64,000 bases of DNA from Tachypleus tridentatus (taxonomy: Eukaryota > Arthropoda > Merostomata > Xiphosura > Limulidae), in the NCBI RefSeq assembly GCF_004210375.1, contig NC_134829.1, forward strand, positions 57,776,107 through 57,840,106, given 5' to 3'. Shown here piece after piece: positions 950 to 61,743 of the stretch (its first letter is position 1; every line of letters starts with the position of its first letter). A program made the translations under genes and the position numbers. The notes beneath the pieces were generated by a model. The model ran no database searches. It had not been told where the DNA came from and saw nothing but the letters and a program-made list of their open reading frames with translations.

Positions 950-2495
950 TGCTACAAGATACGTGGCAGGGTGTATTGCGCAGGGTATCTCGTGTCTTGG
1001 TGTCGTGGCGATTTCGTTCTTTGTCGCTACAGGGTAAATCTCTTGTGGTGAACTCCTTGGTGGCATCGGTGTTATGGTACCCGTTGAATATACTCTCGTA
1101 GCCAAGACAGTTTGAGGCTCGATTTCGCAAATGTATACTGGATTTTATTTGGCGGGGAGGTATACATAAAGTGGCATACGGTATTCTGATCCGGAGTTAT
1201 GATTGTGGAGGTATCAACTTGGTTGATGTTAACACTCGTAAACTCGCATTCCGTTTGAAGTTGTTGCAGCGTTGTTTGGATGCTTCTTGTCCTTCCACCT
1301 TGCGACAACTTCTTTCTGGATTTTTTCTTGTTATGGCAATCTCTCTTTGGGCTTTCGGATTCTTCAATGCCGTATTTTGCCACGTTTTGTGAAATCGTTA
1401 CCTTTCTATATTCAGGAAATGTTTCATGCCTGGAAGGTTCTTCTTGGGGATAAAGGGATTGTCCCAGCTACTGTTTCTCCACAAATTTTGATGAACCTTT
1501 GTTTTCAATCCGGCTATTGTTGATTTTCGCCACCGAACATTTCATTTTCCTGAATTTATTAACGCAGGTTTGGTTCAGGTCCGCCATTTATTGTACGAGG
1601 TGCTCCCTGCTTTTCTTCCGGTGGGGGCAGTGATTGAAATGTGTACGGACGCTGACCCGTTGGCCAATGTCCGCACAATTTTTTCACATTTTCATATGCT
1701 CAAAGAGGCGTTGCCTGTGGACTGGTTGCCGGTTTTGTCCAACCAGCCGGCTCCTCTCCCATCGTCCACACGTGTTGTGGATTTATATTTTCTGGACCAC
1801 TCTGATAATCGAGTTCATTTTCAGGGTTTATCTGTGAAGCAACTGGTGGAACATTTACAGTTTTCACTCGCTACTATTTTCCCTGCTCCATTCTACTGGG
1901 GGGATATTGTTCCTCCTGGAGACTGGAAACGCATTCGTAAATACGCTTATTCTTCTTTTGTGGGTTTTATGTTTGTGATGTGGATTATTTACTGTGGTTG
2001 CGGGCGATTACCACTAATGTCAAGCTGATACATATGGACAGACATCCCACAGGGTTGTGTACTTTCTGTTCCCAGGCGCCGGAAACCATAGACCATCTGT
2101 TTTTCCAATGTCCTTTTGTACAGCCCTTGCGGTCATATGTATATAAATTATTGGCATTTTATTTTGGATGTCCCATATCAAACTGGGTATGGAGGAGATG
2201 CCTCTTAGTGGGATCTCATCCTTCGTTACCCAGGAGATGCTGGAACATATTCCGTTTGTTTACTAGTTTGGCACGTCAGGTTATATGTTCTGCTCGTTCA
2301 GTTTCTTTGGCACGAAATCGCGTAATTTATTTAATTTCCATGTTTAAAGTGCGTGTACGTAGACATATATATCTTCATTATCATAGATCTTTGTTACATA
2401 ACTCATTAAAGGTTTTTTATTTTGTGTATTCTTATGTTGGTTGCTTGGTAACCCAAGGTGCCCAAGGTTATTTCTTGTGTACGTTGTTAAGATAA
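950..2495 (+). pseudogene. ORF2 C-terminal fragment of LINE copy 1
   Basis: Encodes the region after the reverse transcriptase core. It includes the stretch with VAYGILIRSYDCGGINL and, near the end, the Cys/His motif CTFCSQAPETIDHLFFQC (C-X2-C-X8-H-X4-C), which is common at the C-terminus of non-LTR polymerases. The reading is split over several frames (1171-1392, 1570-2028, 1980-2495). One break at the T-run near 1320 is shared with copy 3, while copy 2 has one more T there. There is no endonuclease or catalytic RT domain, so this piece cannot mobilise itself. The stop at 2495 matches the ORF2 stop in the other copies. Confidence 0.82.
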
Positions 2496-2721
2496 GTTGT
2501 TATTTCATTACATTTTTGTTACAATGAAAGATCCATTGATTTCTTGTTTGTTAATGTTCACTATAATATTTGTTGGATTACCTGCTGTTCCAATTACCTC
2601 TTTTATTTCTTTTTCCTTAATTTTATTAACTTTGTGGTAATTTTCAGCATGGTAATCTATAGAGTTATTGTTATATGCTAATTCATTAACTTGTGTTTTA
2701 TTTGTTGTATTTCTGTGTATA

Positions 2722-2766
2722 CCCCCTCGTTGAGGTGGGATAAATAAAGAGAAAAAAAAAAAAAAA
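2722..2766 (+). terminator. LINE 3' stem-loop, poly(A) signal and tail (copy 1)
   Basis: The 3' UTR ends with CCCCCTC-GTT-GAGGTGGG, which folds into seven base pairs with one bulged T and a three-base loop. AATAAA and the A tract follow directly. The same structure lies at 8311-8329 and 40141-40159. I infer it helps the polymerase recognise its own RNA; that is known for other LINEs with 3' hairpins but is not shown here. Confidence 0.6.
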
Positions 2767-2818
2767 CATCCGCCTAACACGCGGATGGTCCCAGGTTCGA
2801 TCCCTGGCAGGCACATTT
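2767..2818 (+). pseudogene. tRNA-Val 3' stub between LINE copies 1 and 2 (52 bp)
   Basis: Contains the tRNA-Val(AAC) sequence from the anticodon arm to the discriminator A, followed by TTT. The 5' acceptor strand and D arm are absent. It is followed directly by the first base of LINE copy 2 at 2819. It keeps the B box (GGTTCGATCCC) but has no A box, so it should not be expressed as a tRNA. It represents both the 3' target flank of copy 1 and the 5' target flank of copy 2. Confidence 0.9.
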
Positions 2819-2958
2819 GGAAAGCGCCGGTTTTCGTCATCGAGTGCAGACGTGTTTTTCGAGCTCCTGATTGCCTTAGTGTAAATTTAACAGCTAAGCC
2901 TAGTGAGCGTGTACTTCTTTTTTTTTGCTAGATTTTGCATTTTTCAAGTTGTTTGACG

Positions 2959-4055
2959 ATGTCTTCATCAACCAAGAAGGTCATGGAAGTTATGCGTCGT
3001 ACTGTTTTCGTGGAAACGACAACTTCAAGCCATGGGGACGTTATCCATTCTGTTATTTCTACGTTTGGTGCTGCTTCGGTCACTGCTGTTGTTCCTCGCC
3101 CGGGTGGTTATGAGGTAACTTTTGTTCTTCCCGCAGATGTGGACCTGGCTATAGATGTTGGTCTAGTTGTCAATGGTGTACTTTGTTCGACTAATGGCGT
3201 CACTAAACGCACTATTACTGTGTCATTTATGGACGTCCCAGAATATATCGACGATGATATTATACTAAATAAACTTAAAGATTATGATTGTGAAGTGAAA
3301 AGCCCTATTGTGTGGAAGAGGGACCAGGGCATATACTTAGGTATACGCCATGTTCGTGTGTGTTTTAGTGAGAAGTGTATCTCTTTGCCGTACGTAGTGA
3401 AAGTTTTTTATCCTTTGGGCAAGGCAATAATGTTAAAAGTGAAGCATGATCGCCAGTCAAAAGTGTGTAATTTATGTTTGGGGGCGGATCATCTATATCG
3501 CGATTGCACCCAGTTTATATGCCGACATTGTCATATGCAGGGACACGTCCGTCAACGTTGTCCCAAGCTTGTTGTTCCTCGAACTTCCTCTAGTGACGAC
3601 GCTGAAGTGGCCACGCCTACTACTTCTCGTGACGCTGCTGAAGTAGTCACGGCTGCTCCCTCTCGTGCAGTGCCTCATGATGTTGACACCATTTCTGTTT
3701 GTCCACGCGTTGATTCGGAGGTTCCCCTTTCAAAGAAGGCTGCAGCTACCCATCGGGTGGTGGACGATGTTTCTGCCCGACGATCGACGGTTTCTGGTGG
3801 GGCCAGGGAACGGGCAAGTAGTTACCCCCCTGCTGGAGGACGCATTTTGATCGTCACTTCCCGCCACTTCCGGTTAGTGGTGAGAGTTCCGCCGGCGATG
3901 TGGAGGTGCCTCTTCCTCGTCGTTGGAGGTATGCTAGTGTGGTGGCAATGTCTCCTGGTGACACTTCTGAGAAGGGCAGTGGACGAAAACGGGTGTCGGA
4001 CGTGCCAATACTACGGATATCTTGGGCGAATGCGAAGGCGGTGTCGCAGCCTTAA
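2959..4055 (+). pseudogene. LINE ORF1 protein, copy 2 (two CCHC zinc knuckles)
   Basis: The start at 2959 (MSSSTKKVMEVMRRTV) is preferred over the in-frame ATG at 2935 because the same ATG is conserved at 34800 in copy 3. The N-terminal half resembles the basic nucleic-acid-binding ORF1 region of Tx1-type LINEs. Then come two zinc knuckles, CNLCLGADHLYRDC and CRHCHMQGHVRQRC, both C-X2-C-X4-H-X4-C, at about residues 180-220. A Ser/Thr/Asp-rich linker and a basic tail follow. Copy 2 has one extra G near 3805, so the tail is read in the wrong frame and the open frame runs on to 4140. The homologous stop is at 4053-4055. The expected role is binding element RNA in the ribonucleoprotein. Confidence 0.85.
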
Positions 4056-4218
4056 ATGTGTTTTTCGTGACAGTTTGTTTGTTTCAGTTCGTGTAAGACT
4101 GTCATTTATTGTTATTTTAACTTTGTGCATATTTGCTTAGATCTTTACATTTATTCTTGTTATTTTTGTGTTTGTGACAGTTTCCTTTCAATTCTTGTAC
4201 CTTTACTTTCTCTTTAGC

Positions 4219-7200
4219 ATGGTATATTTACTAGGGTGGGAGTTTTGAATTGTAATGGGTTGCGTAATGTTAGTAAGCTGGCTTATTACCTGGATTACTT
4301 TGTTACTAATTTTGATGTTGTTTGTTTACAGGAAACGTTTTTCACTGATAACTTTTATGATGTCGTTCTGAAATTTTGGCCAGGTGTAGTTTTTTTTTAA
4401 TATTTCTACTTCTGGCCGACAAGGGGTTGCCATCTTGGTACAGCAGTTTTTGTGTGATAATGTTACATTCGTTTCTTCTGATGGGGTGGGTAGGGTTCTG
4501 ACAGTCAAATTCAGTTTCGAGTCTTTGTCTTATCTGTTATCATCTGTGTACGCTCCTCGCGATATCTCCGAGCGACGGGAATTTTCCAAAACTTGGAGTA
4601 TTGTTTGGATGGTTGCACGGGATTGCTTGTTGTGGGAGATTTTAATTGTGTGGTGGATGTGGCACGCGATCGATTTCCGGTCCGTTTCTACCGTGACGCC
4701 AGCCGTTCGGCTTTTGTACAGTTTCTTAATAGGTTTGACTTACTTGATGCGCATTCACTCATATCTCCGACTACACCTGGTTTCATATGGAAGCGTTTTG
4801 TTAATGGTGAGATGATGTCGTCTCGTATTGATAGGGTTTTGCTTTCTTCTACCTTGCAGGGGACTGTCCAACGTTTCCGTACGTTGTGGTTTCCTGCTAC
4901 AGATCACGCTTTATTGGGCTTCGACCTTACTCTGCGACCAATTGTCAGAGGACCTAATTTCTGGCACTTCAATAACCAGTTATTGAGGGATGCCGAATAT
5001 GTGAAAGCCATTAAGCTGTTGATCGCCAGAAGTCGTAGTTGGTCAGTCTATGGGACTGATAAAATTAAGTGGTATGAACAATTGAAATGCGCGTTCCGTT
5101 TACTTACCGAGCGTTATTCGATTCTTCGTGCGCGGGCATCCCGTTCTCGCAAATGTCAGCTTGAGTCGTCCATCAATCGTGAGCTTCGAAAACTGTCCCG
5201 TTTCCCTGGTAGGTCTAAGGTCAAATTGTATGAACTTGAAGATGCATTGGAGACTTTGGATCACGATACCATAGAGGGGGCGAGGATTCGATCTCATGTT
5301 CGTTGGTTTGAGGAGGGTGAGAGATCTACGTCTTACTTTCTTCGTATGGAAAAGGTCCGTCAAAGCAGAATTGAGTTTCGATCCATGCTCACTGATAGGG
5401 TGTGGAGATGTCCGGTGTGGAAGATATAGCTGCTGTTTTACATCAGTATTATTCCGCACTGTACTCTAAGGATATCGTTCTGCAGGCAGACATAGATTTA
5501 GTTCTCTCATTTGTTGATCGAACTCTTTCCAGTGAACAAGCTAATATTTGTGATGCTCCATTCACGGTTCCGGAAGTTCTCGCTGCTCTAGACAGTTTAC
5601 CGCTGGGCAAATCTCCTGGTTTGGATGGTTTAACCTCCGAATTTTACAAATATTTTCTCCCTCTTTTGTTGACGACTTTTATCTGTCTTGTCTCAACTGT
5701 TCCACTCTCCACAGTTGCTCCGTACAATGTGTTCTGGGGTAATTGTTCCTATCCCGAAAGGCGGGGATCGACGGTTGGCGGCTAACAGCCGGCCTTTGAC
5801 ATTGCTTTGTACTGACTATAAGCTTTTGGCCAAAGTGCTGGCTCGTCGCCTTTCGTCTGTGATCTCCAGTTTAGTTTCAGATGACCAATCCGGGTGTATA
5901 CCTGGACGGGACGTTGCTGATACTCCGTTAACACTCGTTTTGCTATTGCAGTCTTTAGCACGTACCGGCCAGGGTGGAATCTTTTTGAAGCTCGATCAGA
6001 TGCAAGCCTTTGATCGGGTGGCCTATGACTATCTATTTCAACTTCTTCTGCGTATGGGTTTTGGTTCTACTTTTGTTCATTGGGTTCGTCTTTGCTATAC
6101 TTCTATTTCTAGTTGTGTAAAGTTTAATGGATTTCTCACTAATGATTTTGCTATTACTCGGGGTATTCGTCAAGGATGCCCTATGTCTGCTCTCCTTTAC
6201 GTTCTCAGTGTCGAACCGTTACGAAATATGTTAGTTCTTAATGTTCATATTACTGGTATTGGTGGTGATGTGTTACTCACCACGCCTTCACTTACTTATC
6301 AGCATGCTGATGATACCACCTTAACCTTACGAGACGCCGAATCTTTGCCGCATGTGTTGGATGTCTGCCAAACTTTTGGCAAAGCTACTGGTGGGAAGAT
6401 CAACTGGACCAAGAGTCAGGGTTTGTGGGTTGGGTGTTTGGCCTCTTCTGCAGACTTCGTCCTTGGTGAGTTGAGAATTTCCCAGGATCCTATTCGGATT
6501 TTGGGAATAGTTTTCCACTCTAATTTCGATGTCATGCTGCAAGATACGTGGCAGGGTGTATTGCGCAGGGTATCTCGTGTCTTGGTGTCGTGGCGATTTC
6601 GTTCTTTGTCGCTAAAGGGTAAATCTCTTGTGGTGAACTCCTTGGTGGCATCGGTGTTATGGTACCCGTTGAATATACTCCCGTTGGCAAGACAGTTTGA
6701 GGCTCGATTTCGCAAATGTATACTGGATTTTATTTGGCGGGGAGGTATACATAAAGTGGCATACGGTATTCTGATTCGGAGTTATGATTGTGGAGGTATC
6801 AACTTGGTTGATGTTAATACTCGTAAACTCGCATTCCGTTTGAAGTTGTTCAGCGTTGTTTGGATGCTTCTTGTCCTTCCACCTTGCGACAACTTCTTTC
6901 TGGATTTTTTTCTTGTTATGGTAATCTCTCTTTGGGCTTTCGGATTCTTCAATGCCGTATTTTGCCACGTTTTGTGAAATCGTTACCTTTCTATATTCAG
7001 GAAATGTTTCATGCCTGGAAGGTTCTTCTTGGGGATAAAGGGATTGTCCCAGCTCCTCTTTCCCCACAAATTTTTGATGAACCTTTGTTTTTCAATCCGG
7101 CTATTGTTGATGTTCGCCACCGAACATTTCATTTTCCTGAATTTATTAACACAGGTTTGGTTCAGGTCCGCCATTTAATGTACGAAGTGCTCCCTGCTTT

Positions 7201-8082
7201 TCTTCCGGTGGGGCAGTGATTGAAATGTGTACGGACGCTGACCCGTTGGCCAATGCCCGCACAATTTTTTCACATTTTCATATGCTCAAGGAGGCGTTGC
7301 CTGTGGAGTGGTTGCCGATTTTGTCTACCCAGCCGGCTCCTCTTCCGTCGTCCACATGTGTTGTGGATTTATATTTTCTGGACCACTCCGATAATCGAGT
7401 TCATTTTCAAGGTTTATCTGTGCGGCATCTGGAGGGACATTTACAGTTTTCACTCGCTACTAATTTCCCTGCTCCATTCTACTGGATGGATATTGTTCCT
7501 CCTGGAGACTGGAAACCCATTCGTAAAAACGCTTATTCTTCTTTTGTGGGTTTTTTTGTTTGCGATGTGGATTATTTACTCTGGTTGCGGGCGTTTACCA
7601 CTAATGTCAAGCTGATACACATGGACAGACATCCCACAGGGTTGTGCATTTTCTGTTCCCAGGCGCCGGAAACCATAGACCATCTGTTTTTCCAATGTTC
7701 TTTTGTACAGCCCTTGTGGTCATATGTATATAAATTATTGGCATTTTATCTTGGATGTCCCATATCAAACTGGGTATGGAGGAGATGCCTCTTAGTGGGA
7801 TCTCATCCTTCGTTACTCAGGACATGCTGGAACATATTCCGTATGATTACTAGTTTGTCACGTCAGGTTATATGTTCTACTCGTTCAGTTTCTTTGGCAC
7901 GAAATCGCGTCATTCATTTAATTTCCATGTTTAAAGTGCGTGTACGTAGACATATTCATCTCCATCATCAGCGATCATTGTTACATGACTTATTAAATGT
8001 GTTTTATTCTGTGTATTCTTATGTTGGTAGCTTGGTAACCCAAGGTGCCCAAGGTTATTTCTTGTGTACGTTGCTAAGATAA
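4219..8082 (+). pseudogene. LINE ORF2 (APE endonuclease - RT), copy 2
   Basis: The ATG at 4219 matches the copy 3 start. The order is APE endonuclease (GDFNCVVDVARDR, SRIDRVLLS, PATDHALLGFD), linker, RT (GKSPGLDGLTSEF; SRPLTLLCTDYKLLAKVL; FLKLDQMQAFDRVAYDYL; GIRQGCPMSALLYVLS; YQHADDTTLT), thumb region and the C-terminal Cys/His motif. The RT active-site pair is kept, but the usual Tyr/Phe of YADD is His. The reading is split into blocks at 4593-5429, 5402-5785, 5688-6977, 6860-7219 and 7216-8082. Differences from copy 3 include a lost A near 4235, a lost base near 6850 and a shorter G-run near 7210. As assembled it is not translatable as one protein. Expected length is close to 1285 residues. 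Confidence 0.88.
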
Positions 8083-8360
8083 GTTGTTATTTCGTTATAT
8101 TTTTGTTACCAATGAAAGGTCCATTGGTTTCTTGTTTTGTTAATGTTCACTATAATGTTTGTTGGATTGCCTGCTGTTCCAATTTCCTCTTTTATTTATT
8201 TTTCCTTAATTTTATTAACTTTGTGGTAATTTTCAGCATGGTAATCTTTAGAGTTATTGTTACATGCTAATTCATTAACTTGTGTTTTATTTGTTGTATT
8301 TCTGTGTATACCCCCTCGTTGAGGTGGGATAAATAAAGAGAAAAAAAACAACAACAACAA

Positions 8361-8408
8361 CATCCGCTAACACGCGGAATGTCCCAGGTTCGATCCCTGG
8401 CAGGAACA
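8361..8408 (+). pseudogene. tRNA-Val 3' stub downstream of LINE copy 2
   Basis: The tRNA-Val 3' part resumes after the A/CAA tail and continues into array-unit spacer. One C of the anticodon stem is missing (CATCCGCTAAC instead of CATCCGCCTAAC) and the acceptor strand is altered. This is the 3' side of the target duplication for copy 2. Confidence 0.88.
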
Positions 8409-10240
8409 TTTTATTATTTTAAACCATTCGTTTTCTTTCAAATCGGATGGTGAGAAAGTGGATCGATATTTTCTTCATAATATCTGGGTCAGAGCGTGAG
8501 ACGGATGAGAGATATCACAGAAGTTACCGAGTTTCCCCTACACTTGTAACCACTTTTAGAAATACGTGTGACTGTTGTGTGATAAATCAAAACAGGAACG
8601 TTATTACTTTTGAATATAATGCGTGCACTGCTGCGACATTTGATGTGCTGAAACGACCTTCGCGTAATCATGTCACGTTCGACGAAGTATCTGACCAGCA
8701 GGTTACAACTCTTGGATAGAATGGGTTTATGAGTTTTATTTTTCTTAAACGCGTGAATAGTTAGAAACGTCGATGCACGCGACCTTATTTCAAGATAAGT
8801 TAACGTACTTGCCAGGTTGTACAGGTAATATCTAGAGATCACGACTCCGTCAGTGTGTGTTGAGAACAACTCTTCATGCTGTGACAACTAATCACACTAC
8901 ATGTTTCATTCTTTAACCTATTCTTTTAAATTCCGGTCAGAACTATTGGATGGTTATGTGCGTTATCATCTCCAACTTATCAGTGACGGAAAAGAGGAAA
9001 GGCAATTCTACAACATCATTCACCACCAACTATTTGATGTACTTAATTTTTACCGAACAATGAAATTTTCGATCATATCCTAACTCCTTCTACGTCTGAA
9101 AATGATTACATGTTACTTCATTTGAATTGGGAATACACGCCCCTCAGAGAGCGACTCAAATGTCCTTACCACCATGTCTAGCCAATCTGAAGAAGAGAAG
9201 TAGCGTCCTCCTATAGACAGCATTGTTTTCTTCAAGACTCCTTGTTCTATTTATCCATTTTTGTCTGATTTCTTTATTTTTATAACATTTCTTCACTTAG
9301 TAAAGATGTTTTACGATGCTTAATGTCTTCTGGTCATGATCGATTCTCCTGTTTTACGTACTTATTAAAAAAATTGTATTTAGTTCACTTGAATATAGTA
9401 CAGACTAGACAGGTAAAATGAAATTACGATGCCAAGACCGGAGAATATTTGTTATTCTGAAGTGTTTTTAGGTGCAGCTGGTTCATGTAAACGTTTTTCT
9501 TAAACAAGAATTCTTTGTTTTGGTAATGGCATTTTGAACGTGAAGAACGATGTGTTACATAGAGAGAGGACGATAGTCTCGAAGAGTAGATGGTTTTCGA
9601 AAAGAGATGTGGCATAACAGATAAGACATCTTCTGTACATTGGGCTTTATTCCACCGCTGTGATCTCCTCAAACCACAACTGTCAACGTACTATTACAAC
9701 TAAAGCGTGTTTGGACAAGGTTATCATTTTAGGAGTTTGAGAGTCACCATGCAACTTCGTCGTATTGAACACCTTAAACAAGTTGTGTGTGACAAGAAAA
9801 CATCGGCTATAGTGGAATCCCAGAATTGGTCACAAAATAACGAATATTAAATATTTTTTAAGACGACCCCTAATTTTGTTAATGGATTTATTAGACGTAT
9901 AAAATCGCTTATTACGTTATCGTTTAATAATTCTGATAAAAAAATTAATGCTATGAAAATGTTCTGTTCAGTTTTTGACAGAGAGAGAAAAGACTGAGGA
10001 AAGAAAACTTTGCGTTTTGCACGTTTAAAAGCAATTAAACGAGGTGTGAAAACGTTTGATACTGTGGGCTCGATAAAGTCGTTGAAAGACACGTTAGCAC
10101 ATTAAAAAAATACTTTTGGCTTTGGTAGACAAGGAGAGTGTTATTTTTTCTTACTGTTAGACGTTAAGCTGTCATTGTATTTTTTGTTTGTTTAGAGTGC
10201 GAAATATATATTTTGAAACGAGAATACCAATGTGTAACTT
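8361..10240 (+). repeat. tRNA-Val array unit b (spacer)
   Basis: Nearly the whole spacer of the 1.94-kb unit, collinear with 42153-44035, with scattered substitutions and small indels. Homology fades near 10190-10240, just short of where the next tRNA gene should be. The next tRNA is missing and Penelope-like sequence is found instead. An open frame on the minus strand (8489-8887) recurs in the other units, but most of its differences between units change the amino acid, so I do not call it a gene. Confidence 0.85.
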
Positions 10241-34444: not shown

Positions 34445-34585
34445 GCCTATACAACATGTTTTATATTATTTAAAGTTAAACGTTAAACTGTCATTATACT
34501 TGTGTTTGTTTACACTGCGAAATAAAATTTTGGAACGTTATCGTTTCATTTTAAAAACTTTAACAGCAAAAATTGCGAAAGAGAG
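34445..34585 (+). repeat. end of a tRNA-Val array unit (spacer upstream of tRNA)
   Basis: Matches 43914-44041, the part of the unit just before the tRNA gene (TTATATTATTTAAAGTTAAA, CACTGCGAAATAAAA). Homology begins abruptly near 34445, the left edge of the second array block. Confidence 0.8.
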
Positions 34586-34658
34586 GTGCTTGTGGTGTAG
34601 TGGTTATCACATCCGCCTAACACGCGGAATGTCCCAGGTTCGATCCCTGGCAAGCACA
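34586..34658 (+). tRNA. tRNA-Val(AAC), upstream of LINE copy 3
   Basis: A complete 73-nt cloverleaf. Acceptor GTGCTTG pairs with CAAGCAC (7/7 Watson-Crick). The anticodon stem TCCGC/GCGGA has loop CTAACAC (anticodon AAC, valine). The T stem is CCAGG/CCTGG with loop TTCGATC, and the discriminator is A. A and B boxes are present. Downstream, the normal TTTT is cut to TTT where LINE copy 3 begins at 34662; the next T run is TTTTT at 34698-34702, inside the element. The gene is therefore structurally intact but has an altered terminator. Confidence 0.95.
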
Positions 34659-34702
34659 TTTGGAAAGCGCCGGTTCTCGTCAACGAGTACAGACGTGTTT
34701 TT
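34659..34702 (+). terminator. altered Pol III terminator region at tRNA/LINE junction
   Basis: At uninterrupted loci the tRNA is followed by TTTTAATATTTT. Here only TTT remains before the LINE's GGAAAGCG, and the first run of four or more T's is TTTTT at 34698-34702. Pol III transcripts would be expected to carry about 40 nt of LINE 5' sequence before termination. This is inference from known Pol III oligo-T termination. Confidence 0.6.
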
Positions 34703-34799
34703 CGAGCTCCTCATTGCCTTAGTGTAAATTTAACAGCTAAGCCTGGTGAGTGTGTAGTTTTTTTTTTGCTAGATTTTGTATTTTTCAAGTTGTTTGACG

Positions 34800-35893
34800 A
34801 TGTCTTCATCAACTAAGAAGGTCATGGAAGTTATGCGTCGTACAGTTTTTGTTGAAACGACTAATTCAAGCCATGGGGACGTTATCCATTCTGTTATTTC
34901 TACGTTTGCGCAGCTTCGGTCACTGCTGTAGTTCCTCGCCCGGGTGGATATGAGGTAACTTTTGTTCTTCCCGACGATGTGGACCTGGCTATAGATGCTG
35001 GTCTAACTGTAAATGGTGTGCACTGTTCGGCTAATGGTGTCACTAAACGTACTATTACTGTGTCATTTATGGACGTACCCGAATATATCGACGATGATAT
35101 TATACTAAATAAACTTAAAGATTATGATTGTGAGGTGAAAAGCCCTATTGTGTGGAAGAGGGACCAGGGCATATACTTAGGTATACGCCATGTTCGTGTG
35201 TGTTTTAGTGAGAAGTGTATCTCTTTGCCGTACGTAGTAAAAGTTTTTGATCCTTTGGGCAAGGCGGTAATGGTAAAAGTGAAGCATGATCGCCAGTCAA
35301 AAGTATGTAATTTATGTTTGGGGGCGGATCATCTATATCGAGATAGCACCCAGTTTATATGCCGACATTGTCATATGCAGGGACACGTCCGTCAACGTTG
35401 TCCCAAGCTTGTTGTTCCTCGAACTTCCTCTAGTGACGACGCTGAAGTGGCCACGCCTACTACTTCTCGTGACGCCGCTGAAGTAGACCCGGCTGCTCCC
35501 TCTCGTGCAGTGCCTCATGATGTTGACACCATTTCTGTTTGTCCACGCGTTGATTCGGAGGTTCCCCTTTCAAAGAAGGCTTCAGCTACCCTTCGGGTGG
35601 TGGACGATGTTTCTGCCCGACGATCGACGGTTACTGGTGGGGCCAGGAACGGGCAAGTAGTCACCCCTGCTGCAAGTCGCAATTTTGATCGTCACTTCCC
35701 GCCACTTCCGGTTAGTGGTGTGAGTACCGCCGGCGATGTGGAGGTGCCTCTTCCTCGTCGTTGGAGGTATGCTAGTGTGGTGGCAATGTCTTCTGGTGAC
35801 ACTTCTAAGAAGGGCAGTGGACGAAAACGGGTGTCGGACGTGCCAATACTACGGATATCTCGGGCGAAGGCGAAGGCGGTGTCGCAGCCTTAA
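34800..35893 (+). pseudogene. LINE ORF1 protein, copy 3
   Basis: ATG at 34800 in the same context as copy 2, with the stop at 35891-35893. The region is N-terminal RNA-binding-type sequence, then two zinc knuckles, a Ser/Thr/Asp-rich linker and a basic C-terminus ending RISRAKAKAVSQP. A base is lost near 34908, so the N-terminal 36 or so codons and the rest are in different frames. The first knuckle has its last Cys changed to Ser (HLYRDS); the second is intact (CRHCHMQGHVRQRC). From 34979 the frame is open to the natural end, so this copy shows the true C-terminus that copy 2 has lost. Confidence 0.85.
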
Positions 35894-36056
35894 ATGTGTT
35901 TTTTTGTGACAGTTTGTTTGTTTCAGTTAGTGTAAGACTGTCATTTATTGTTATTTGAACTTTGTGCATGTTTGCTTAGATCTTTACATTTATTCTTGTT
36001 ATTTTTGTGTTTGTGACAGTTTCCTTTCAATTTTGTACCTTTACTTTCTCTTTAGC

Positions 36057-39000
36057 ATGGTACATTTACTAAGGGTGGGAGTTTTGAATTGTAATGGGTT
36101 GCGTAATGTTAGTAAGCTGGCTTATTACCTGGATTACTTTGTTACTAATTTTGATGTTGTTTGTTTACAGGAAACGTTTTTCACTGATAACTTTTATGAT
36201 GTCGTTCTGAAATTTTGGCCAGGTGTAGTTTTTTTTAATAATTCTACTTCTGGCCGACAAGGGGTTGCCATCTTGGTACAGCAGTTTTTGTGTGATAATG
36301 TTACATTCGTTTCTTCTGATGGGGTGGGTAGGGTTCTGACAGTCAAATTCAGTTTCGAGTCTTTGTCTTATCTGTTATCATCTGTGTACGCTCCTCGCGA
36401 TATCTCCGAGCGACGGAATTTTCCAAAACTTGGAGTATTGTTTGGATGGTTGCACAGGATTGCTTGTTGTGGGAGATTTTAATTGTGTGGTGGATGTGGC
36501 ACGCGATCGATTTCCGGTCCGTTTCTACCGAGACGCCAGCCGTTCGGCTTTTGTCCAGTTGCTTAATAGGTTTGATTTGCTTGATGCGCATTCACTCATA
36601 TCGCCGACTACACCTGGTTTCACATGGAAGCGTTTTGTTAATGGTGAGATGATGTCGTCACGTATTGACAGGGTTTTGCTTTCTTATATCTTGCAGGGGA
36701 CTGTCCAACGTTTCCGTACGTTGTGGTTTCCTGCTACAGATCACGCTTTATTGGGCTTCGACCTTACTCTGCGACCAATTGTCAGAGGTCCTAATTTCTG
36801 GCACTTCAATAACCAGTTATTGAGGGATGCCGAATATGTGAAAGCCATTAAGCTGTTGATCGCCAGAAGTCGTAGTTGGTCAGTTTATGGGACTGATAAA
36901 ATTAAATGGTATGAACAATTGAAATGCGCGTTCCGTTTACTTACCGAGCGTTATTCGATTCTTCGTGCGCGGGCATCCCGTTCTCGCAAATGTCAGCTTG
37001 AGTCGTCCATCAATCGTGAGCTTCGAAAACTGACCCGTTTCCCTGGTAGATCTAAGGTCAAATTGTATGAACTTGAAGATGCATTGGAGACTTTGGATCA
37101 CGATACCATAGAGGGGGCGAGGATTCGATCTCATATTCGTTGGTTTGAGGAGGGTGAGAGATCTACGTCTTACTTTCTTCGTATGGAAAAGGTCCGTCAA
37201 AGCAGAATTGAGTTTAGATCCATGCTCACTGATAGGGGTGTGGAGGTGTCCGGTGTGGAAGATATCGCTGCTGTTTTACATCAGTATTATTCCGCACTGT
37301 ACTCTAAGGATATCGTTCTGCAGGCAGACATAGATTTAGTTCTCTCATTTGTTGATCGAACTCTTTCCAGTGAACAAGCTAATATTTGTGATGCTCCATT
37401 CACGGTTCCGGAAGTTATCGCTGCTTTAGACAGTTTACCGCTGGGCAAATCTCCTGGTTTATGTGGTTTTACCTCCGAATTTTTCAAATATTTTCTACCT
37501 CTTTTTGTTGACGACTTTTTATCTGTCTTGTCTCAACTGTTTCACTCTCCACAGTTGCTCCGTACAATGTGTTCTGGGGTAATTGTTCCTATCCCGAAAG
37601 GGGATCGACGGTTGGCGGCTAACAGCCGGCCTTTGACATTGCTTTGTACTGACTATAAGCTTTTGGCCAAAGTGCTGGCTCGTCGCCTTTCGTCTGTGAT
37701 CTCCAGCTTAGTTTCAGATGACCAATCCGGGTGTATACCTGGACGGGACGTTGCTGATACTCCATTAACACTCGTTTTGCTATTGCAATCTTTAGCACGT
37801 ACCGGCCAGGGTGGAATCTTTTTGAAGCTCGATCAGATGCAAGCTTTTGATCGGGTGGCCTATGACTATCTATTTCAACTTCTTCTGCGTATGGGTTTTG
37901 GTTCTACTTTTGTTCATTGGGTTCGTCTTTGCTATACTTCTATTTCTAGTTGTGTAAAGTTTAATGGATTTCTCACTGATGATTTTGCTATTACTCGGGG
38001 TATTCGTCAAGGATGCCCCATGTCTGCTCTACTTTACGTTCTCAGTGTCGAACCGTTACGAAATATGTTAGTCCATAATGTACATATTACTGGTATTGGT
38101 GGTGATGTGCTACTCACCACGCCTTCACTTACTTATCAGCATGCTGATGATACCACCTTAACCTTACGAGACGCCGAATCTTTGCCGCATGTGTTGGATG
38201 TCTGCCAAACTTTGGCAAAGCTACTGGTGGGAAGATCAACTGGACCAAGAGTCAGGGTTTGTGGGTTGGGTGTTTGGCCTCTTCTGCAGACTTCGTCCTT
38301 GGTGAGTTGAGAATTTCCCAGGATCCTATTCGGATTTTGGGAATAGTTTTCCACTCTAATTTCGATGTCATGCTGCAAGATACGTGGCAGGGTGTATTGC
38401 GCAGGGTATCTCGTGTCTTGGTGTCGTGGCGATTTCGTTCTTTGTCGCTAAAGGGTAAATCTCTTGTGGTGAACTCCTTGGTGGCATCGGTGTTATGGTA
38501 CCCGTTGAATATACTCCCGTTGCCAAGACAGTTTGAGGCTAGATTTCGCAAATGTATACTGGATTTTATTTGGCGGGGAGGTATACATAAAGTGGCATAC
38601 GGTATTCTGATTCGGAGTTATGATTGTGGAGGTATCAACTTGGTTGATGTTAACACTCGTAAACTCGCATTCCGTTTGAAGTTGTTGCAGCGTTGTTTGG
38701 ATGCTTCTTGTCCTTCCACCTTGCGACAACTTCTTTCTGGATTTTTTCTTGTTATGGTAATCACTCTTTAAGCTTTCGGATTCTTCAATGCCGTATTTTG
38801 CCACGTTTTGTGAAATCGTTACCTTTCTATATTCAGGAAATGTTTCATGCCTGGAAGGTTCTTCTTGGGGATAAAGGGATTGTCCCAGCTCCTCTTTCCC
38901 CAAATTTTGATGAACCTTTGTTTTTCAATCCGGCTATTGTTGATGTTCGCCACCGAACATTTCATTTTCCTGAATTTATTAACGCAGATTTGGTTCAGGT

Positions 39001-39913
39001 CCGTCATTTAATGTACGAGGTGCTCCCTGCTTTTCTTCCGGTGGGGGCAGTGATTGAAATGTGTACGGACGCTGACCCGTTGGCCAATGCCCGCACAATT
39101 TTTTCACATTTTCATATGCTCAAGGAGGCGTTGCCTGTGGAGTGGTTGCCGATTTTGTCTACCCAGCCGGCTCCTCTTCCGTCGTCCACATGTGTTGTGG
39201 ATTTATATTTTCTGGACCACTCTGATAATCGAGTTCATTTTCAAGGTTTATCTGCGGCAACTGGTGGGATATATACAGTTTTCACTCGCTAATAACTTCC
39301 CTGCTCCATTCTACTGGGGGATATTGTTCCTCCTGGAGACTGGAAACGCATTCGTAAAAACGCTTATTCTTCTTTTGTTGGTTTTTTTTGTTTGTGATGT
39401 GGATTATTTACTCTGGTTGCGGGCGATTACCACAAATGTCAAGCTGATACATATGGACAGACATCCCACAGGGTTGTGCACTTTCTGTTCCCAGGCGCCA
39501 GAAACCATAGACCATCTGTTTTCCAATGTCCTTTTGTACAGCCCTTGTGGTCATATGTATATAAATTATTGGCATTTTATTTTGGATGTCCCATATCAAA
39601 CTGGGTATGGAGGAGATGCCTCTTAGTGGGATCTCATCCTTCGTTACCCAGGAGATGCTGGAACATATTCCGTTTAATTACAAGTTTGGCACGTCAGGTT
39701 ATATGTTCTGCTCGTTCAGTTTCTTTGGCACGAAATCGCATCATTCATTTAATTTCCATGTTTAAAGTGCGTGTACGGAGACATATATATCTTCATTATC
39801 ATAGATCTTTGTTACATAACTCATTAAATGTTTTTTATTCTGTGTATTCTTATGTTGGTAGCTTGGTAACCCAAGGTGCCCAAGGTTATTCCTTGTGTAC
39901 GTTGTTAAGATAA
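36057..39913 (+). pseudogene. LINE ORF2 (APE endonuclease - RT - Cys/His), copy 3
   Basis: The start MVHLLRVGVLNCNGLRN at 36057 is the first Met before the endonuclease; the upstream in-frame part from 35955 is hydrophobic and not conserved. The endonuclease shows LNCNGL, VVCLQET, SGRQGVAILV, GDFNCVVD, SRIDRVLLS and TDHALLGFD. RT shows GKSPGLCGFTSEFF, DYKLLAKVLARRL, DQSGCIPGRDVADT, FLKLDQMQAFDRV, GIRQGCPMSALLY and QHADDTTLTL. The end has CTFCSQAP and the Cys/His motif region. There are frame changes near 36415 and 38213, a stop at about 38769, and later small indels. The longest uninterrupted block (36430-38310, 626 codons) spans late endonuclease through RT. About 1285 residues if uninterrupted. 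Confidence 0.9.
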
Positions 39914-40140
39914 GTTGTTATTTCATTATATTTTTGTTACCAATGCAAGATCCATTGATTTCTTGTTTGTTAATGTTCATTATAATGTTTGTTGGATTAC
40001 CTGCTGTTCCAATTACCTCTTTTATTTCTTTTTCCTTAATTTTATTAACTTTGTGGTAATGTTCAGCATGGTAATCTATAGAGCTATTGTTACATGCTAA
40101 TTCATTAACTAGTGTTTTATTTGTTGTATTTCTGTGTATA

Positions 40141-40186
40141 CCCCCTCGTTGAGGTGGGATAAATAAAGAGAAAAAAAAAAAAAAAA
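40141..40186 (+). terminator. LINE 3' stem-loop, poly(A) signal and tail (copy 3)
   Basis: Same 7-bp stem with bulged T and GTT loop as in copies 1 and 2, followed by AATAAA and 16 A's directly joined to the tRNA-Val sequence at 40187. Confidence 0.6.
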
Positions 40187-40235
40187 CATCCGCCTAACAC
40201 GCGGAAGGTCCCAGGTTCGATCCCTGGCAGGCACA
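40187..40235 (+). pseudogene. tRNA-Val 3' stub downstream of LINE copy 3
   Basis: Starts at CATCCGCC, the end of the tRNA D arm, and runs to the discriminator A. The following TTTTAATATTTT terminator is intact. It lacks the 5' acceptor strand and A box. It is the downstream half of the 52-bp target duplication. Confidence 0.93.
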
Positions 40236-42104
40236 TTTTAATATTTTGAACCATTCTTTTTCTTTCAAATCGGATGGTGAGAACGTGGACCGATATTTTC
40301 TTCATAATATCTGTTTCAGAGGGTGAGACGGCTGAGAGATATCACAGAAGTTACCGAGTTTCCCCCCCTACACTTGTAACCACTTTCAGAAATTCGTGTG
40401 ACTGTTGTGTGATAAATCAAAACAGGAACGTTATTACTTTTGAATATAATGCGTGCACTGCTGCGACATTTGAAGTGATGAAACGACCTTCGCGTAATCA
40501 TGTGACGTTCGACGAAGTATCTGACCAGCAAGTTACAACTTTTGGATAGAATGGGTTTATGAGTTTTGTTTTTCTTAAATGCGTGAACAGTTTGAAACGT
40601 CGATGCACGCGACCTTATTTGAAGATAAGTTAACGTACTTGCCAGGTTGTACAGGTAATATCTAGAGATCACGACTCCGTCAGTTTGTGTTGAGAACAAC
40701 TCTTCATGCTGTGACAACTAATCACACTACATGTTTCATTCTTTAACCTATTCTTTTAAATTCCGGTCAGAACTATTGGATGGTTATGTGCGTTATCATC
40801 TCCAACTTACCAGTGACGGAAAAGAGGATAGGCAATTCTACAACATCATTCACCACCAACTATTTGATGTACTTAATTTTTACCGAACAGTGAAATTTTC
40901 GATCATATCCTAACTCGTCCTACGTCTGAAAATGCTTACATGTTATTTCATTTGAATTGGGAATACACGCCCCTCGGAGAGAGACTCAAATGTCCTTACC
41001 ACCATGTCTAGCCAATCTGAAGAAGAGAAGTATCGTCCTCCTATAGACAGCATTGTTTTCTTATAGACTTCTTGTTCTGTTTATCCCTTTTTGTCTGATT
41101 TCTTTATTTTTATAACATTTCTTCACTTTGTAAAGATATTTTACGATGCTTAATGTCTTCTCGTCATGATCGAATCTCCTGTTTTACGTACTTATTAAAA
41201 AATTGTATTTAGTTCACTTGAATATAGTACAGACTAGACAGGTAAAATGAAATTACGATGCCAAGACCGGAGAATATTTGTTATTCTGAAGTGTTTCCTA
41301 CTTCTTGGTGCAGTTGGTTCATGTAAACGTTTTTCTTAAACAAGAATTCTTTGTGTTGGTTATGTAATTTTGTCGTGAAGAACGATGTGTAACCTAGAGA
41401 GAGGACGATAGTCTCGAAGAGTAGATGGTTTTCGAAAATAGATGTTGTATAACAGATAAGACATCTTCTGTACATTGGGCTTTATTCCACCGCTGTGATC
41501 TCCTACAACCCACAACTGTCAACGTACTATTACAACTAAAGCGTGTTTGGACAAGGTTATCATTTTAGGAGTTTGAGAGTCACCATGCAACTTTGTCGTA
41601 TTGAACACCTTACACAAGTTTTGTGTGACAAGAAAACATCGGCTAGAGGAAATCCAAAATTGGTCACAAAATAACGAATATTAAATATTAATTAAGACGA
41701 TCCCTAATTTTGTTAATGGATTTAATAGACGTATAAAATCGCTTATTGCGTTATCGTTTAATAATTCTGATAGAAAAATTAAAGCCATGAAAATGTTCTG
41801 TTCAGTTTTTGATAGAAAGAGAAAAGACTGAGGAAAGAAAACTTTGCGTTTTGCACGTTTCAAAGCAATTAAACGAGGTGTGAAAACATTTGACACTGTG
41901 GGCTCGATAAATTCGTTGAAAGACACCGTAGCACATTGGAAAAATTCTTTTTGGCATTGGTAGAAAAAGGAGAGTGTTATATTATTTAAAATTAAAGGTT
42001 AAACTGTCATTATACTTTTGTGTTTGTTTACACTGCGAAATAAAAAAATTTTGGAACGTTATCGTTTCATTTAAATCTCTAACAAGAAAAATCGCGAAAC
42101 GCAG
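40187..42104 (+). repeat. tRNA-Val array unit d (after LINE copy 3)
   Basis: Full spacer of the unit, collinear and near-identical with 42153-44041. With copy 3 removed, the tRNA at 34586 and this spacer make one complete unit. Confidence 0.92.
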
Positions 42105-42177
42105 GTGCTTGTGGTGTAGTGGTTATCACATCCGCCTAACACGCGGAAGGTCCCAGGTTCGATCCCTGGCAGGCACA
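42105..42177 (+). tRNA. tRNA-Val(AAC), uninterrupted copy in unit e
   Basis: 73 nt. Acceptor GTGCTTG/CAGGCAC has one T-G wobble; the D arm contains TAGTGGTTATC; anticodon stem TCCGC/GCGGA has loop CTAACAC (AAC, Val); the T arm is CCAGG-TTCGATC-CCTGG; discriminator A. TTTT follows at once (42178-42181). This is the empty target site that shows where the LINE inserts. Confidence 0.97.
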
Positions 42178-44041
42178 TTTTAATATTTTGAACCATTCTT
42201 TTTTCTTTCAAATCGGATGGTGAGAACGTGGACCGATATTTTCTTCATAATATCTGTTTCAGAGGGTGAGACGGCTGAGAGATATCACAGAAGTTACCGA
42301 GTTTCCCCCTACACTTGTAACCACTTTCAGAAATTCGTGTGACTGTTGTGTGATAAATCAAAACAGGAACGTTATTACTTTTGAATATAATGCGTGCACT
42401 GCTGCGACATTTGAAGTGATGAAACGACCTTCGCGTAATCATGTGACGTTCGACGAAGTATCTGACCAGCAAGTTACAACTTTTGGATAGAATGGGTTTA
42501 TGAGTTTTGTTTTTCTTAAATGCGTGAACAGTTTGAAACGTCGATGCACGCGACCTTATTTGAAGATAAGTTAACGTACTTGCCAGGTTGTACAGGTAAT
42601 ATCTAGAGATCACGACTCCGTCAGTTTGTGTTGAGAACAACTCTTCATGCTGTGACAACTAATCACACTACATGTTTCATTCTTTAACCTATTCTTTTAA
42701 ATTCCGGTCAGAACTATTGGATGGTTATGTGCGTTATCATCTCCAACTTACCAGTGACGGAAAAGAGGATAGGCAATTCTACAACATCATTCACCACCAA
42801 CTATTTGATGTACTTAATTTTTACCGAACAGTGAAATTTTCGATCATATCCTAACTCGTCCTACGTCTCAAAATGCTTACATGTTATTTCATTTGAATTG
42901 GGAATACACGCCCCTCGGAGAGAGACTCAAATGTCCTTACCACCATGTCTAGCCAATCTGAAGAAGAGAAGTATCGTCCTCCTATAGACAGCATTGTTTT
43001 CTTATAGACTTCTTGTTCTGTTTATCCCTTTTTGTCTGATTTCTTTATTTTTATAACATTTCTTCACTTTGTAAAGATATTTTACGATGCTTAATGTCTT
43101 CTCGTCATGATCGAATCTCCTGTTTTACGTACTTATTAAAAAAATTGTATTTAGTTCACTTGAATATAGTACAGACTAGACAGGTAAAATGAAATTACGA
43201 TGCCAAGACCGGAGAATATTTGTTATTCTGAAGTGTTTCCTCCTTCTTGGTGCAGCTGGTTCATGTAAACGTTTTTCTTAAACAAGAATTCTTTGTTTTG
43301 GTTATGGAATTTTGTCGTGAAGAACGATGTGTAACCTAGAGAGAGGACAATAGTCTCGAAGAGTAGATGGTTTTCGAAAATAGATGTTGCATAACAGATA
43401 AGACATCTTCTGTGCATTGGACTTTATTCCACCGCTGTGATCTCCTACAACCCACAACTGTCAATGTACTATTACAACTTAAGCGTGTTTGGACAAGGTT
43501 ATCATTTTAGGAGTTTGAGAGTCACCATGCAACTTTTGTGGTATTGAACACCTTAAACAAGTTTTGTGTGACAAGAAAACATCGGCTAGAGTGAAATCGC
43601 AAAATTGGTCACAAAATAACGAATATTAAATATTATTTAAGACGATCCCTAATTTTGTTAATGGATTTAATAGACGTATAAAATCGCTTATTGCGTTATC
43701 GTTTAATAATTCTGATAGAAAAATTAAAGCCATGAAAATGTTCTGTTCAGTTTTTGATAGAAAGAGAAAAGACTGAGGAAAGAAAACTTGCGTTTTGCAC
43801 GTTTCAAAGCAATTAAACGAGGTGTGAAAACATTTGATACTGTGGGCTCGATAAATTCGTTGAAAGACACCGTAGCACATTGGAAAAATTCTTTGGCATT
43901 GGTAGAAAAGGAGAGTGTTATATTATTTAAAATTAAAGGTTAAACTGTCATTATACTTGTGTTTGTTTACACTGCGAAATAAAATTTTTGGAACGTTATC
44001 GTTTCATTTAAATCTCTAACAAGAAAAATCGCGAAACGCAG
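42105..44041 (+). repeat. tRNA-Val array unit e (complete, 1937 bp)
   Basis: The only complete unit free of a LINE: one tRNA-Val gene plus a spacer of about 1.86 kb. The spacer shows no second RNA gene and no believable coding region. Open frames of 60-137 codons recur in the other units, but their differences are mostly amino-acid changing. Confidence 0.93.
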
Positions 44042-44112
44042 GTGCTTGTGGTGTAGTGGTTATCATCCGCCTAACACGCGGAAGGTCCCAGGTTCGATCC
44101 CTGGCAGGCATA
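44042..44112 (+). tRNA. tRNA-Val(AAC)-like gene with 2-nt loss, unit f
   Basis: Same sequence as the gene at 42105 but lacking two bases at the D-arm/anticodon-arm junction (TTATCATCC), and with the last acceptor base changed (CAGGCAT). Both A- and B-box regions are still recognisable. It may be a real pseudogene or a consensus error, since unit f carries many small indels near the assembly gap. Confidence 0.75.
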
Positions 44113-45310
44113 TTTTAATATTTTGAACCATTCTTTTCTTTTAAATCGGATGGTGAGAACGTGGAACGATATTTTCTTCATAATATCTGTTTCAGAGGGT
44201 GAGACGGCTGAGATATCACAGAAGTTACCGAGTTTCCCTACACTTGTAACCACTTTCAGAAATTCATGTGACTGTTGTGTGATAAATCAAAACAGGAACG
44301 TTATTACTTTGAATATAATGCGTGCACTGCTGCGACATTTGAAGTGATGAAACGACCTTCGCGTAATCATGTGACGTTCGACGAAGTATCTGACCAGCAA
44401 GTTACAACTTTTGGATAGAATGGGTTTATGAGTTTTGTTTTTTTCTTAAATGCGTGAACAGTTTGAAACGTCGATGCACGCGACCTTATTTGAAGATAAG
44501 TTAACGTACTTGCCAGGTTGTACAGGTAATATCTAGAGATCACGACTCCGTCAGTTTGTGTTGAGAACAACTCTTCATGCTGTGACAACTAATCACACTA
44601 CATGTTTCATTCTTTAACCTATTCTTTTAAATTCCGGTCAAAACTATTGGATGGTTATGTGCGTTATCATCTCCAACTTACCAGTGACGGAAAGAGGAAA
44701 GGCAATTCTACAACATCATTCACCACCAACTATTTGATGTACTTAATTTTACCGAACAGTGAAATTTTCGATCATATCCCTAACTCGTCCCTACGTCTGA
44801 AAATGCTTACATGTTATTTCATTTGAATTGGGAACACACGCCCCTCGTAGAGAGAGACTCAAAATGTCCCTTACCACCATGTCTAGCCAATCTGAAGAAG
44901 AGAAGTATCGTCCTCCTATAGACAGCATTGTTTTCTTATAGACTTCTTGTTCTGTTTATGATTTCTTTATTTTATAACATTTCTTCCTTAAAGATATTTT
45001 ACGATGATATGTCTTCTCGTCATGATCGAATCTTCTGACGTTACGGTACAAAACTTGTATTTAGTTCACTTGAATATAGTGCTCAGGTATGAACAATTAG
45101 ACCTTGTATGCCCCGAAATAATTCTTCCTTTCTTGGTGCAGCTGGTTCATGTAAACGTTTTTCTAAACAAGAACTTTGTTTTGTTATGGAATTTTGTCGT
45201 GAAGAACGATGTGTAACCTAGAGAGAGGACGATAGTCTGAAGAGTAGATGGTTTTCGAAAATAGATGTTGCATAACAGATAAGACATCTTCTGTACATTG
45301 GCTTTATTCC
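44042..45310 (+). repeat. tRNA-Val array unit f (partial, ends at gap)
   Basis: Collinear with unit e but with an unusually high density of one- and few-base indels, mainly after 44690. It stops at the assembly gap. Confidence 0.9.
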
Positions 45311-45810
45311 NNNNNNNNNNNNNNNNNNNNNNNNNNNNNNNNNNNNNNNNNNNNNNNNNNNNNNNNNNNNNNNNNNNNNNNNNNNNNNNNNNNNNNNNNN
45401 NNNNNNNNNNNNNNNNNNNNNNNNNNNNNNNNNNNNNNNNNNNNNNNNNNNNNNNNNNNNNNNNNNNNNNNNNNNNNNNNNNNNNNNNNNNNNNNNNNNN
45501 NNNNNNNNNNNNNNNNNNNNNNNNNNNNNNNNNNNNNNNNNNNNNNNNNNNNNNNNNNNNNNNNNNNNNNNNNNNNNNNNNNNNNNNNNNNNNNNNNNNN
45601 NNNNNNNNNNNNNNNNNNNNNNNNNNNNNNNNNNNNNNNNNNNNNNNNNNNNNNNNNNNNNNNNNNNNNNNNNNNNNNNNNNNNNNNNNNNNNNNNNNNN
45701 NNNNNNNNNNNNNNNNNNNNNNNNNNNNNNNNNNNNNNNNNNNNNNNNNNNNNNNNNNNNNNNNNNNNNNNNNNNNNNNNNNNNNNNNNNNNNNNNNNNN
45801 NNNNNNNNNN
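45311..45810. other. 500-N assembly gap
   Basis: Exactly 500 N's, probably a placeholder of unknown true size. It lies at the end of the array, so array copy number to the right is not known. The long open frames reported across it are artefacts of the N's. Confidence 0.98.
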
Positions 45811-46697: not shown

Positions 46698-47842
46698 AAC
46701 AGTATTTAATTATATTTAAGCGAAAACTTTCGTTTGCTTAGCGATATTAAAGCGCATTTTATCAGAACAAAATTCGCTTCACAAAGTATATGAATATACA
46801 CGATATTTTAACAATTCATGTCTGTTCTCGTCTGTTTCTGTTGTTTTCTTTTTCCAATCAAAACTATTCTCGACGAGGAATAAGTAGAATAAAAAATAAA
46901 TACAGAAACGTATTTTGAAAACTCTATTTTCAAGTTTTTTCAATCAAGTTTTATCTAATTATTTTTTATTATATAAGAAAAACAATGATTTCAAGGCGAT
47001 CATCAGAACGAGGCGTTAAATATAGACCTAACCAAAATTATACTTTGCAGCGTATTATATTAGCGTGTGAGTGGATTCCTTAGAGAAAATTGAACGAGAT
47101 AGGGTAAAGACGGAAAACTGTTGTTTTACAGTAGAGTGAAGAATAAAAGCCCGCGAACATTGGTATAAATCAAATTTCAGATAATGTTGTTCATTGTATT
47201 ATCACTGATAAGGTGGATGATGGGAAAAATTAGTGACCATACACAAGGCAGTCTAGGCAACTCTCTGATTTCGAGAGAAATTCTAGCAGCACCAGAGCCC
47301 CCTGTCTGTGTCGATCAATAAGTACAAAGGAAGAAGGCTTATGCATGAGTTCTAGCCAACACGTTTTGTCTTCAGGCCCGTATGCGCATAGTTGTACATC
47401 ATGTTAGTCATATTTGTTCGGTAAAGGTTGACGACCACGGGGTGACCGGGAGTCGAGATGGGTGTCTTCGTCAGCGCTTGCTTCCGCTGTAAACGGGATC
47501 TCTGTGATTCGTGATTTCTCCCATCTCAAGTGTTGTCAGGTGGTGCAAACGCACGAGATTTTGTAAATTCCTTACAAATACGTCGTTCAAAGTTCTGGCT
47601 TTGGCGCCAAGGAGCAAACTTTCTGTAAAAAAAACACTCGAGGTTGAATATTCTTCAATGCAGCTGACACTAATGGACTGCACTGACCCCTTGTTCACGT
47701 GGACAGCAACAGCTTCGCAACGCATTCTCCTCCTTAATCGCTGTATGCAGAACCGACACGACGAAGCGATCAGGAACAACTACTTGGAACAGTTGCGGAA
47801 CTTGTCTTCTTCACCAACGTTTGGAAACACTTTCCATTCTTC
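46698..47842. other. unexplained less AT-rich region with opposing open frames
   Basis: GC content rises after about 47230. On the minus strand 47471-47779 encodes 102 residues (LLLGAKARTLNDVFVRNLQN, HHLTTLEMGEITNHRDP). On the plus strand 47511-47842 is also open, then runs into the minisatellite. I recognise no family and saw no clear splice or start context. It could be a host exon, an unrecognised element or chance. Confidence 0.3.
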
Positions 47843-61660: not shown

Positions 61661-61743
61661 GATCGTGCTGAATTTTGTACATTAACGTTAGTCAAGAAAT
61701 TGGCATTTAGTTATTAATGCGTGCGTTAAATCCCATCTCTTTT

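Follow-up and report, generated by a model that had tools for sequence, protein, structure and literature searches.

A LINE found at one nucleotide of tRNA-Val(AAC) genes in a tandem array of Tachypleus tridentatus

Introduction

Tx1L, Keno, Mutsu and Dewa are members of the Tx1 clade of LINEs. According to the accessible part of PMC4640811, an APE-type endonuclease is confined, among target-specific LINEs, to the Tx1 and R1 clades, and those outside the two clades carry a restriction-like one. The element described here shares the APE-type endonuclease with the target-specific LINEs of the Tx1 clade (PMC4640811, same part). As presented in the accessible part of PMC3706591, Keno inserts into U2, Mutsu into 5S rRNA genes and Dewa into a tRNA-Leu spacer in zebrafish; none of these targets is the interior of a tRNA gene, unlike the site reported below, and these families were compared with our element by description only.

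Non-LTR retrotransposons specific for tRNA genes have also been described, two of them in planaria. The accessible part of PMC4640811 lists the planarian LIN15_SM (tRNA-Arg) and LIN25_SM (tRNA-Glu), as well as NeSL-1_TV, which is specific for tRNA-Pro genes. It groups all three with NeSL relatives, whereas the element studied here has an APE-type endonuclease and a reverse transcriptase (RT) nearer to L1 than to R2. The Dictyostelium elements TRE5/TRE3, NLTR-A and NLTR-B are, like ours, L1-type LINEs that target tRNA genes, but they insert at a range of distances outside the gene (PMC5911963, in the part available), in contrast to the one fixed nucleotide inside the gene, nt 25, observed here. 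A likeness of another kind is offered by Dada-tV, which sits in the anticodon arm of tRNA-Val and other tRNA genes of fish (PMC8869645, as far as accessible). Dada elements are, however, DDE DNA transposons with 6-7 bp duplications (PMC3706591, accessible part), a mechanism unlike that of a LINE. For molluscan Tx1 elements, we found no tRNA target in the accessible part of PMC10294476.

Here, we analyzed a 64-kb stretch of T. tridentatus contig NC_134829.1 (64,000 nucleotides; hereafter, the window), in which three LINE copies, A, B and C, lie in an array of tRNA-Val(AAC) genes (Table 1).

Results

The tRNA-Val(AAC) array and its surroundings

The tRNA-Val(AAC) gene is part of a unit of roughly 1.94 kb (1937 bp; reference 42105-44041) that is repeated in tandem. 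ARAGORN predicted three plus-strand tRNA-Val(AAC) genes in the window, at 34586, 42105 and 44042, and over the whole window these three tRNAs were the only Rfam matches, of any family, to pass the gathering score. By blastn, the unit matched at 1-942, 2766-2818, 8360-10220, 34458-34580, 34586-34661 and 40186-45310, the last as three adjoining pieces, and at 11114-11958 with 72% identity. Inside the array there is an assembly gap, a 500-base N run at 45311-45810. We also searched the window for the target motif and obtained five matches at up to three mismatches versus 0.00 expected in shuffles, a count that leaves out the 3' flank of LINE B, which carries a deletion. The CA that is missing from the third tRNA-Val gene (44042-44112) falls exactly at the LINE junction point; its loss could be due to slippage within CACA, or could mark a place where a nick was repaired and no element inserted.

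Several other repeats were noted in the window. An element with a GIY-YIG domain occurs as two inverted copies (10253-11054 and 24057-24784) whose arms are 83-97% alike; the Pfam scores of the domain are 9.4e-05 and 0.0044, the latter below the cut-off, and we read the element as Penelope-like. Its copy at 10253 begins about 30 bases past a break in the tRNA-Val unit (unit position 1891), just before the next expected tRNA. A sequence resembling a hammerhead core, CTGACGA...GAAA, was seen by eye within this element at 10980-11040, where no Rfam match to a ribozyme was obtained even at E 5. A dispersed repeat of about 180-280 bp occurs in both orientations (46439, 49937, 53998, 56136, 59709, 63299 and others), and its copies (family D8 plus inverted pairs) are 65-85% similar to the one at 49937 that served as reference; it appears tRNA-like at one end by eye and is probably a SINE. 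It is reminiscent of horseshoe crab sequence, and exact-pattern scans with it gave zero matches. Minisatellites with units of 55, 30, 46 and 61 bp lie at about 17158-18186, 47773-48748, 58846-59719 and 61681-62236, respectively.

Table 1. Features of the LINE copies and of the tRNA-Val(AAC) array (window coordinates).
Feature	Position	Strand	Evidence
LINE A, without first 3709 bp; joins the unit mid-spacer	950..2754	+	blastn
Single 52-bp tRNA piece serving as 3' flank of A and 5' flank of B	2767..2818	+	blastn, alignment
LINE B, 5'-complete; RT and zf-RVT pieces readable	2819..8343	+	blastn; RVT_1 5e-30, zf-RVT 2.2e-09
Remainder of B tail, A8(CAA)n, up to 8360, followed at 8361-8411 by the 3' target-site duplication, which lacks one C	8344..8411	+	sequence, alignment
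Complete tRNA-Val(AAC) upstream of LINE C	34586..34658	+	ARAGORN; Rfam RF00005, 64.9 bits; alignment
LINE C, 5'-complete, 5.5 kb; small indels break its frames	34662..40173	+	blastn, sequence, open frames, indel list
LINE C ORF1 remnant, two zinc-knuckle patterns	34865..35893	+	by eye
LINE C ORF2, N-terminal piece, APE-type endonuclease	35931..36482	+	phmmer to L1 endonuclease 8.3e-05; Exo_endo_phos 0.00037, below Pfam cut-off
LINE C ORF2, remaining endonuclease and reverse transcriptase with ADD motif	36340..38310	+	RVT_1 2.3e-24; L1 ORF2p 6.2e-45
LINE C 3' end: hairpin CCCCCTC-GTT-GAGGTGGG, then AATAAA and poly(A) start	40118..40173	+	fold
3' target-site duplication of C (tRNA-Val nt 25-73 and TTT, lacking tRNA nt 1-24)	40187..40238	+	motif search, blastn, alignment
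Empty tRNA-Val unit, 1.94 kb	42105..44041	+	tRNA 42105-42177 intact, TTTT 42178-42181; ARAGORN, blastn
Second uninserted tRNA-Val, without CA at the junction point	44042..44112	+	ARAGORN, alignment

The LINE copies share fixed junctions and a 52-bp duplication

Blastn with LINE C (E up to 1e-8) matched three places in the window, including C itself, all at the tRNA-Val site; no LINE copy was detected away from this site in the window, 500 bases of which are N. The 3' tail is joined to tRNA nt 25 in all three copies (A at 2767, B at 8361, C at 40187), and the junction of B at 8361 reads CATCCGCT, with one C lost. At the other end, the two copies with a preserved 5' end (B at 2819, C at 34662) have GGAAAGCG directly after the tRNA and TTT. 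In unit coordinates obtained by blastn, the flank 3' of B and C starts from 24, the A-B interval corresponds to 24-76 and the sequence upstream of C to 1-76. Since unit position 24 is an A and may belong to the tail, the certain 3' start is 25, so that the tail joins at nt 25 or 24. The fixed 3' and 5' junctions thus define a target-site duplication of 52 bp, unit 25-76 (tRNA nt 25-73 plus TTT). The 5' copy of this duplication at LINE C is 34610-34661, and the two copies on either side of C show two differences in the alignment. Those around B are three substitutions and one deletion apart, in an alignment that excludes the first C of B's 3' copy, as it lies outside the aligned stretch. LINEs A and B are stacked, separated by the 52 bp alone.

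The copies in the window therefore share the same nucleotide; such sharing by separate insertions is what defines a target-specific LINE. The first-pass annotation had proposed that a LINE inserts at one exact position in tRNA-Val genes, and within the window this is well supported by three of three 3' junctions and two of two 5' junctions. Its empty site at 42105-42181 does hold an intact tRNA followed by TTTT, and its 5' end three T's past the tRNA 3' end applies to B and C alike. It had placed the 3' join right after the D arm; the tRNA site is the same in all three copies, but CATCCGCC opens with the last D-stem base (nt 25), so the join falls at the last D-stem base pair. This placement relies on manual folding, with the anticodon at 34 according to ARAGORN. 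The first-pass annotation made no mention of the 52-bp duplication, of the tRNA restored by it or of the stacking of A and B.

Because LINE A has lost the first 3709 bp together with the upstream part of the tRNA, it is silent on the 5' end. The simplest reading of this loss is a later deletion; alternatively, it may reflect a 5'-truncated insertion with loss of the target. The tails differ between the copies, with A only in LINEs A and C and A8(CAA)n in LINE B. The reading frames of LINEs B and C are disrupted by indels, so activity is shown for no copy. By manual count, 13 of the 24 gaps between LINEs B and C lie in runs of at least three of one base, and some of the broken frames may therefore be sequencing errors.

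The encoded proteins fit the L1 group

ORF1 of Tx1-clade elements carries CCHC knuckles. By eye, both zinc knuckles of LINE B have the form CX2CX4HX4C; the first knuckle of LINE C reads S for its final C, and the second is intact. Pfam gave neither a CCHC nor any other significant match for ORF1, and the predicted structure of ORF1 (mean pLDDT 36.1) was too poor for use.

In ORF2, the endonuclease positions N, E, Y, D-N and D-H, motif positions with established roles, align with those of the L1 endonuclease. Pfam detected RVT_1 in both C and B and zf-RVT in B (Table 1), and gave no match for three further C-terminal ORF2 pieces of C. In phmmer searches against PDB chains, the RT matched L1 ORF2p at 1.5e-44 and the best R2 chain at 2.5e-08; some of the matched chains are ones that we take to be L1 or R2-type, and since no other kind of chain was among the RT matches, the nearest relative is judged only coarsely here. 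The RT is thus nearest to L1 and ORF2 has an APE-type endonuclease at its N terminus, two features that mark the L1 group. The APE-type domain speaks against an R2/NeSL element, which would carry a restriction-like endonuclease and no APE domain, as does an RT that matches L1 far better than R2, the one of these groups compared. Judged from its sequence, the element fits the L1 group (L1 and Tx1 clades). Membership in the Tx1 clade, which we assume in preference to the L1 clade, is plausible, with the nearest relative judged among solved structures only.

Scans for ORF2 relatives yielded one pattern match in viral contigs and 10 in genome contigs, none of which was confirmed, and exact-pattern scans with the LINE 3' end and with the tail-target junction gave zero matches. 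The hairpin at the 3' end of LINE C had a z of -2.7 when 58 nt were folded and of -0.4 in a 116-nt context. At the 5' end (34580-34980), the two Rfam matches obtained at E up to 5 included no ribozyme family.

Effects of insertion on the tRNA gene

Because the 52-bp stagger would be filled, insertion should rebuild a complete tRNA upstream of the element. The rebuilt tRNA before C scores as well as the empty gene in Rfam (64.9 versus 64.3 bits) and would presumably be functional. Among the three copies, C alone has a complete tRNA in front today; at the A/B site the 5' part of the tRNA is missing and has gone along with the 5' end of A. The remnant downstream of each element consists of tRNA nt 25-73 only. 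Given the positions of the A box and B box in tRNA genes, this remnant keeps the B box and lacks the A box.

The TTTT that follows the empty gene (42178) becomes TTT and then GG at an insertion, and the next run of at least four T's starts at position 13 in LINE B and 37 in LINE C. We infer that the pre-tRNA trailer would be longer after insertion and that Pol III would not transcribe the LINE in full. A transcript of the entire LINE, made by Pol III from the upstream tRNA, was also considered, and was rejected because of these early runs of at least four T's.

A proposed insertion mechanism and its alternatives

We consider it likely that the element is an L1-group LINE, probably of the Tx1 clade, that uses a single nucleotide of tRNA-Val(AAC) genes as its site for target-primed reverse transcription. 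The APE-type endonuclease would nick the bottom strand at tRNA nt 24/25, where the A-rich tail of the LINE RNA would be copied. The top strand would be cut 52 bp downstream, past the third T of the Pol III terminator, and filling of the 52-bp stagger would leave nt 25-73 on both sides. The outcome would be a full tRNA gene upstream of the element and a downstream fragment without its 5' third. The order of the nicks and the enzyme that makes the second cut are presumed in this scheme, as is specificity beyond the window; all three insertions come from one tRNA array in one 64-kb window. Nicks at nt 24/25 and 52 bp downstream would explain the two ends of the element as well as its A-tail, its orientation and the duplication. 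With the second cut beyond the gene, gene and target would be rebuilt in front of the element; the target would stay usable and allow tandem stacking with a 52-bp spacing, which accounts for the A-B stack.

The endonuclease might instead cut wherever it is held, with the element tethered by Pol III factors as proposed for Dictyostelium TRE5. The target is indeed a Pol III gene, and the TRE5-A ORF1 protein interacts with TFIIIB proteins (PMC5911963, accessible part). TRE and NLTR insertions, however, lie outside the gene and are spread out (e.g., 40-54 bp upstream and 40-150 bp downstream, in the same part of PMC5911963), whereas both LINE ends here are fixed to one nucleotide and the 3' junction is within the gene. 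We therefore regard tethering as an unlikely explanation by itself; it could act jointly with sequence recognition.

Since the units form a tandem array, we also asked whether a LINE may have entered a tRNA-Val gene once by chance and been amplified with the array, in which case the common site would reflect duplication and not targeting. An insertion that was duplicated together with its unit is expected to be as diverged as its flank. We counted 166 differences over 5503 aligned bases between LINEs B and C (3.02%) and 99 over 1804 between the spacers 3' of them (5.49%), almost twice as much (Fisher p 3.0e-6), which argues for separate B and C events. Gene conversion could also cause such a low divergence between LINEs B and C. 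For the other pairs, LINE and flank are similarly diverged, as duplication would predict (A/C, 3.39% versus 3.73%, p 0.66; A/B, 4.33% versus 4.61%, p 0.77), so this test separates B from C only.

Over the 1494 codons open in both B and C (250 of ORF1 and 1244 of ORF2, with stop codons in either copy dropped), we counted 62.5 synonymous and 61.5 nonsynonymous differences, giving a dN/dS of 0.30 (p 1.0e-10). Many of the differences thus appear to have arisen while the proteins were under selection, contrary to what amplification of a single insertion predicts. In the 3' part (482-484 codons, with 2-3 stop-bearing codons set aside), pN/pS was 0.53 for A/B (p 0.019), 0.46 for A/C (p 0.009) and 0.43 for B/C (p 0.010). 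The most diverged pair is that of the neighbours A and B (78/1802, 4.33%), versus 61/1798 (3.39%) for A/C and 62/1799 (3.45%) for B/C. Sites that distinguish a single copy number 24 for C, 37 for A and 38 for B; the stacked A and B are therefore not mutual closest copies, which again speaks against duplication. An origin of the A-B stack by unequal crossing-over between 52-bp repeats was rejected for the same reason, A/B being the most diverged pair. Taken together, amplification of one chance insertion seems very unlikely, and separate retrotranspositions of A, B and C are well supported by these comparisons and by the differing tails.

It is very unlikely that an ordinary LINE with a loose preference was sampled here by chance: although there are only three copies from one window, three 3' junctions on one base of a 1937-bp unit would have a probability of about (1/1937)^2 = 2.7e-7 if insertions were uniform and independent, and blastn gave no copy elsewhere in the window.

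Discussion

The first-pass annotation had suggested, subject to a database check, that no standard family is described for Tx1 elements with a fixed position within an animal tRNA gene. The claim of novelty is weakened by published tRNA-gene-specific LINEs, including animal ones, although these come from the NeSL-related lineage; with LIN15_SM and LIN25_SM known, insertion of LINEs into tRNA genes of animals is not new as such (PMC4640811, accessible part). A narrower claim can be kept: among the matches listed from the open-access literature, we found no APE-type LINE inside a tRNA gene, and none with a gene-sparing stagger of 52 bp, although Repbase, which is outside this scope, may well list such a family. 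The combination that looks new is that of an APE-type LINE, a site within a tRNA gene and a 52-bp stagger that spares this gene.

Whether the element represents a lineage of APE-type LINEs by which the targeted gene is spared can be answered only tentatively, and we see this as possible. The nicks of such a lineage would straddle the 3' two-thirds of the tRNA by 52 bp, and each insertion would rebuild both the tRNA and the target, allowing stacking.

Bacterial islands restore the 3' ends of tRNA genes, and a gene-sparing LINE, if true, would be a eukaryotic counterpart of them. LINEs that insert at a defined site attract interest because they might allow genes to be added safely from an RNA template. 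With its single-nucleotide target in a tRNA gene of many copies, and with a complete tRNA left behind, the element would be a distinctive candidate. It would also show how a parasite can colonize a family of essential genes while the copy it strikes survives.
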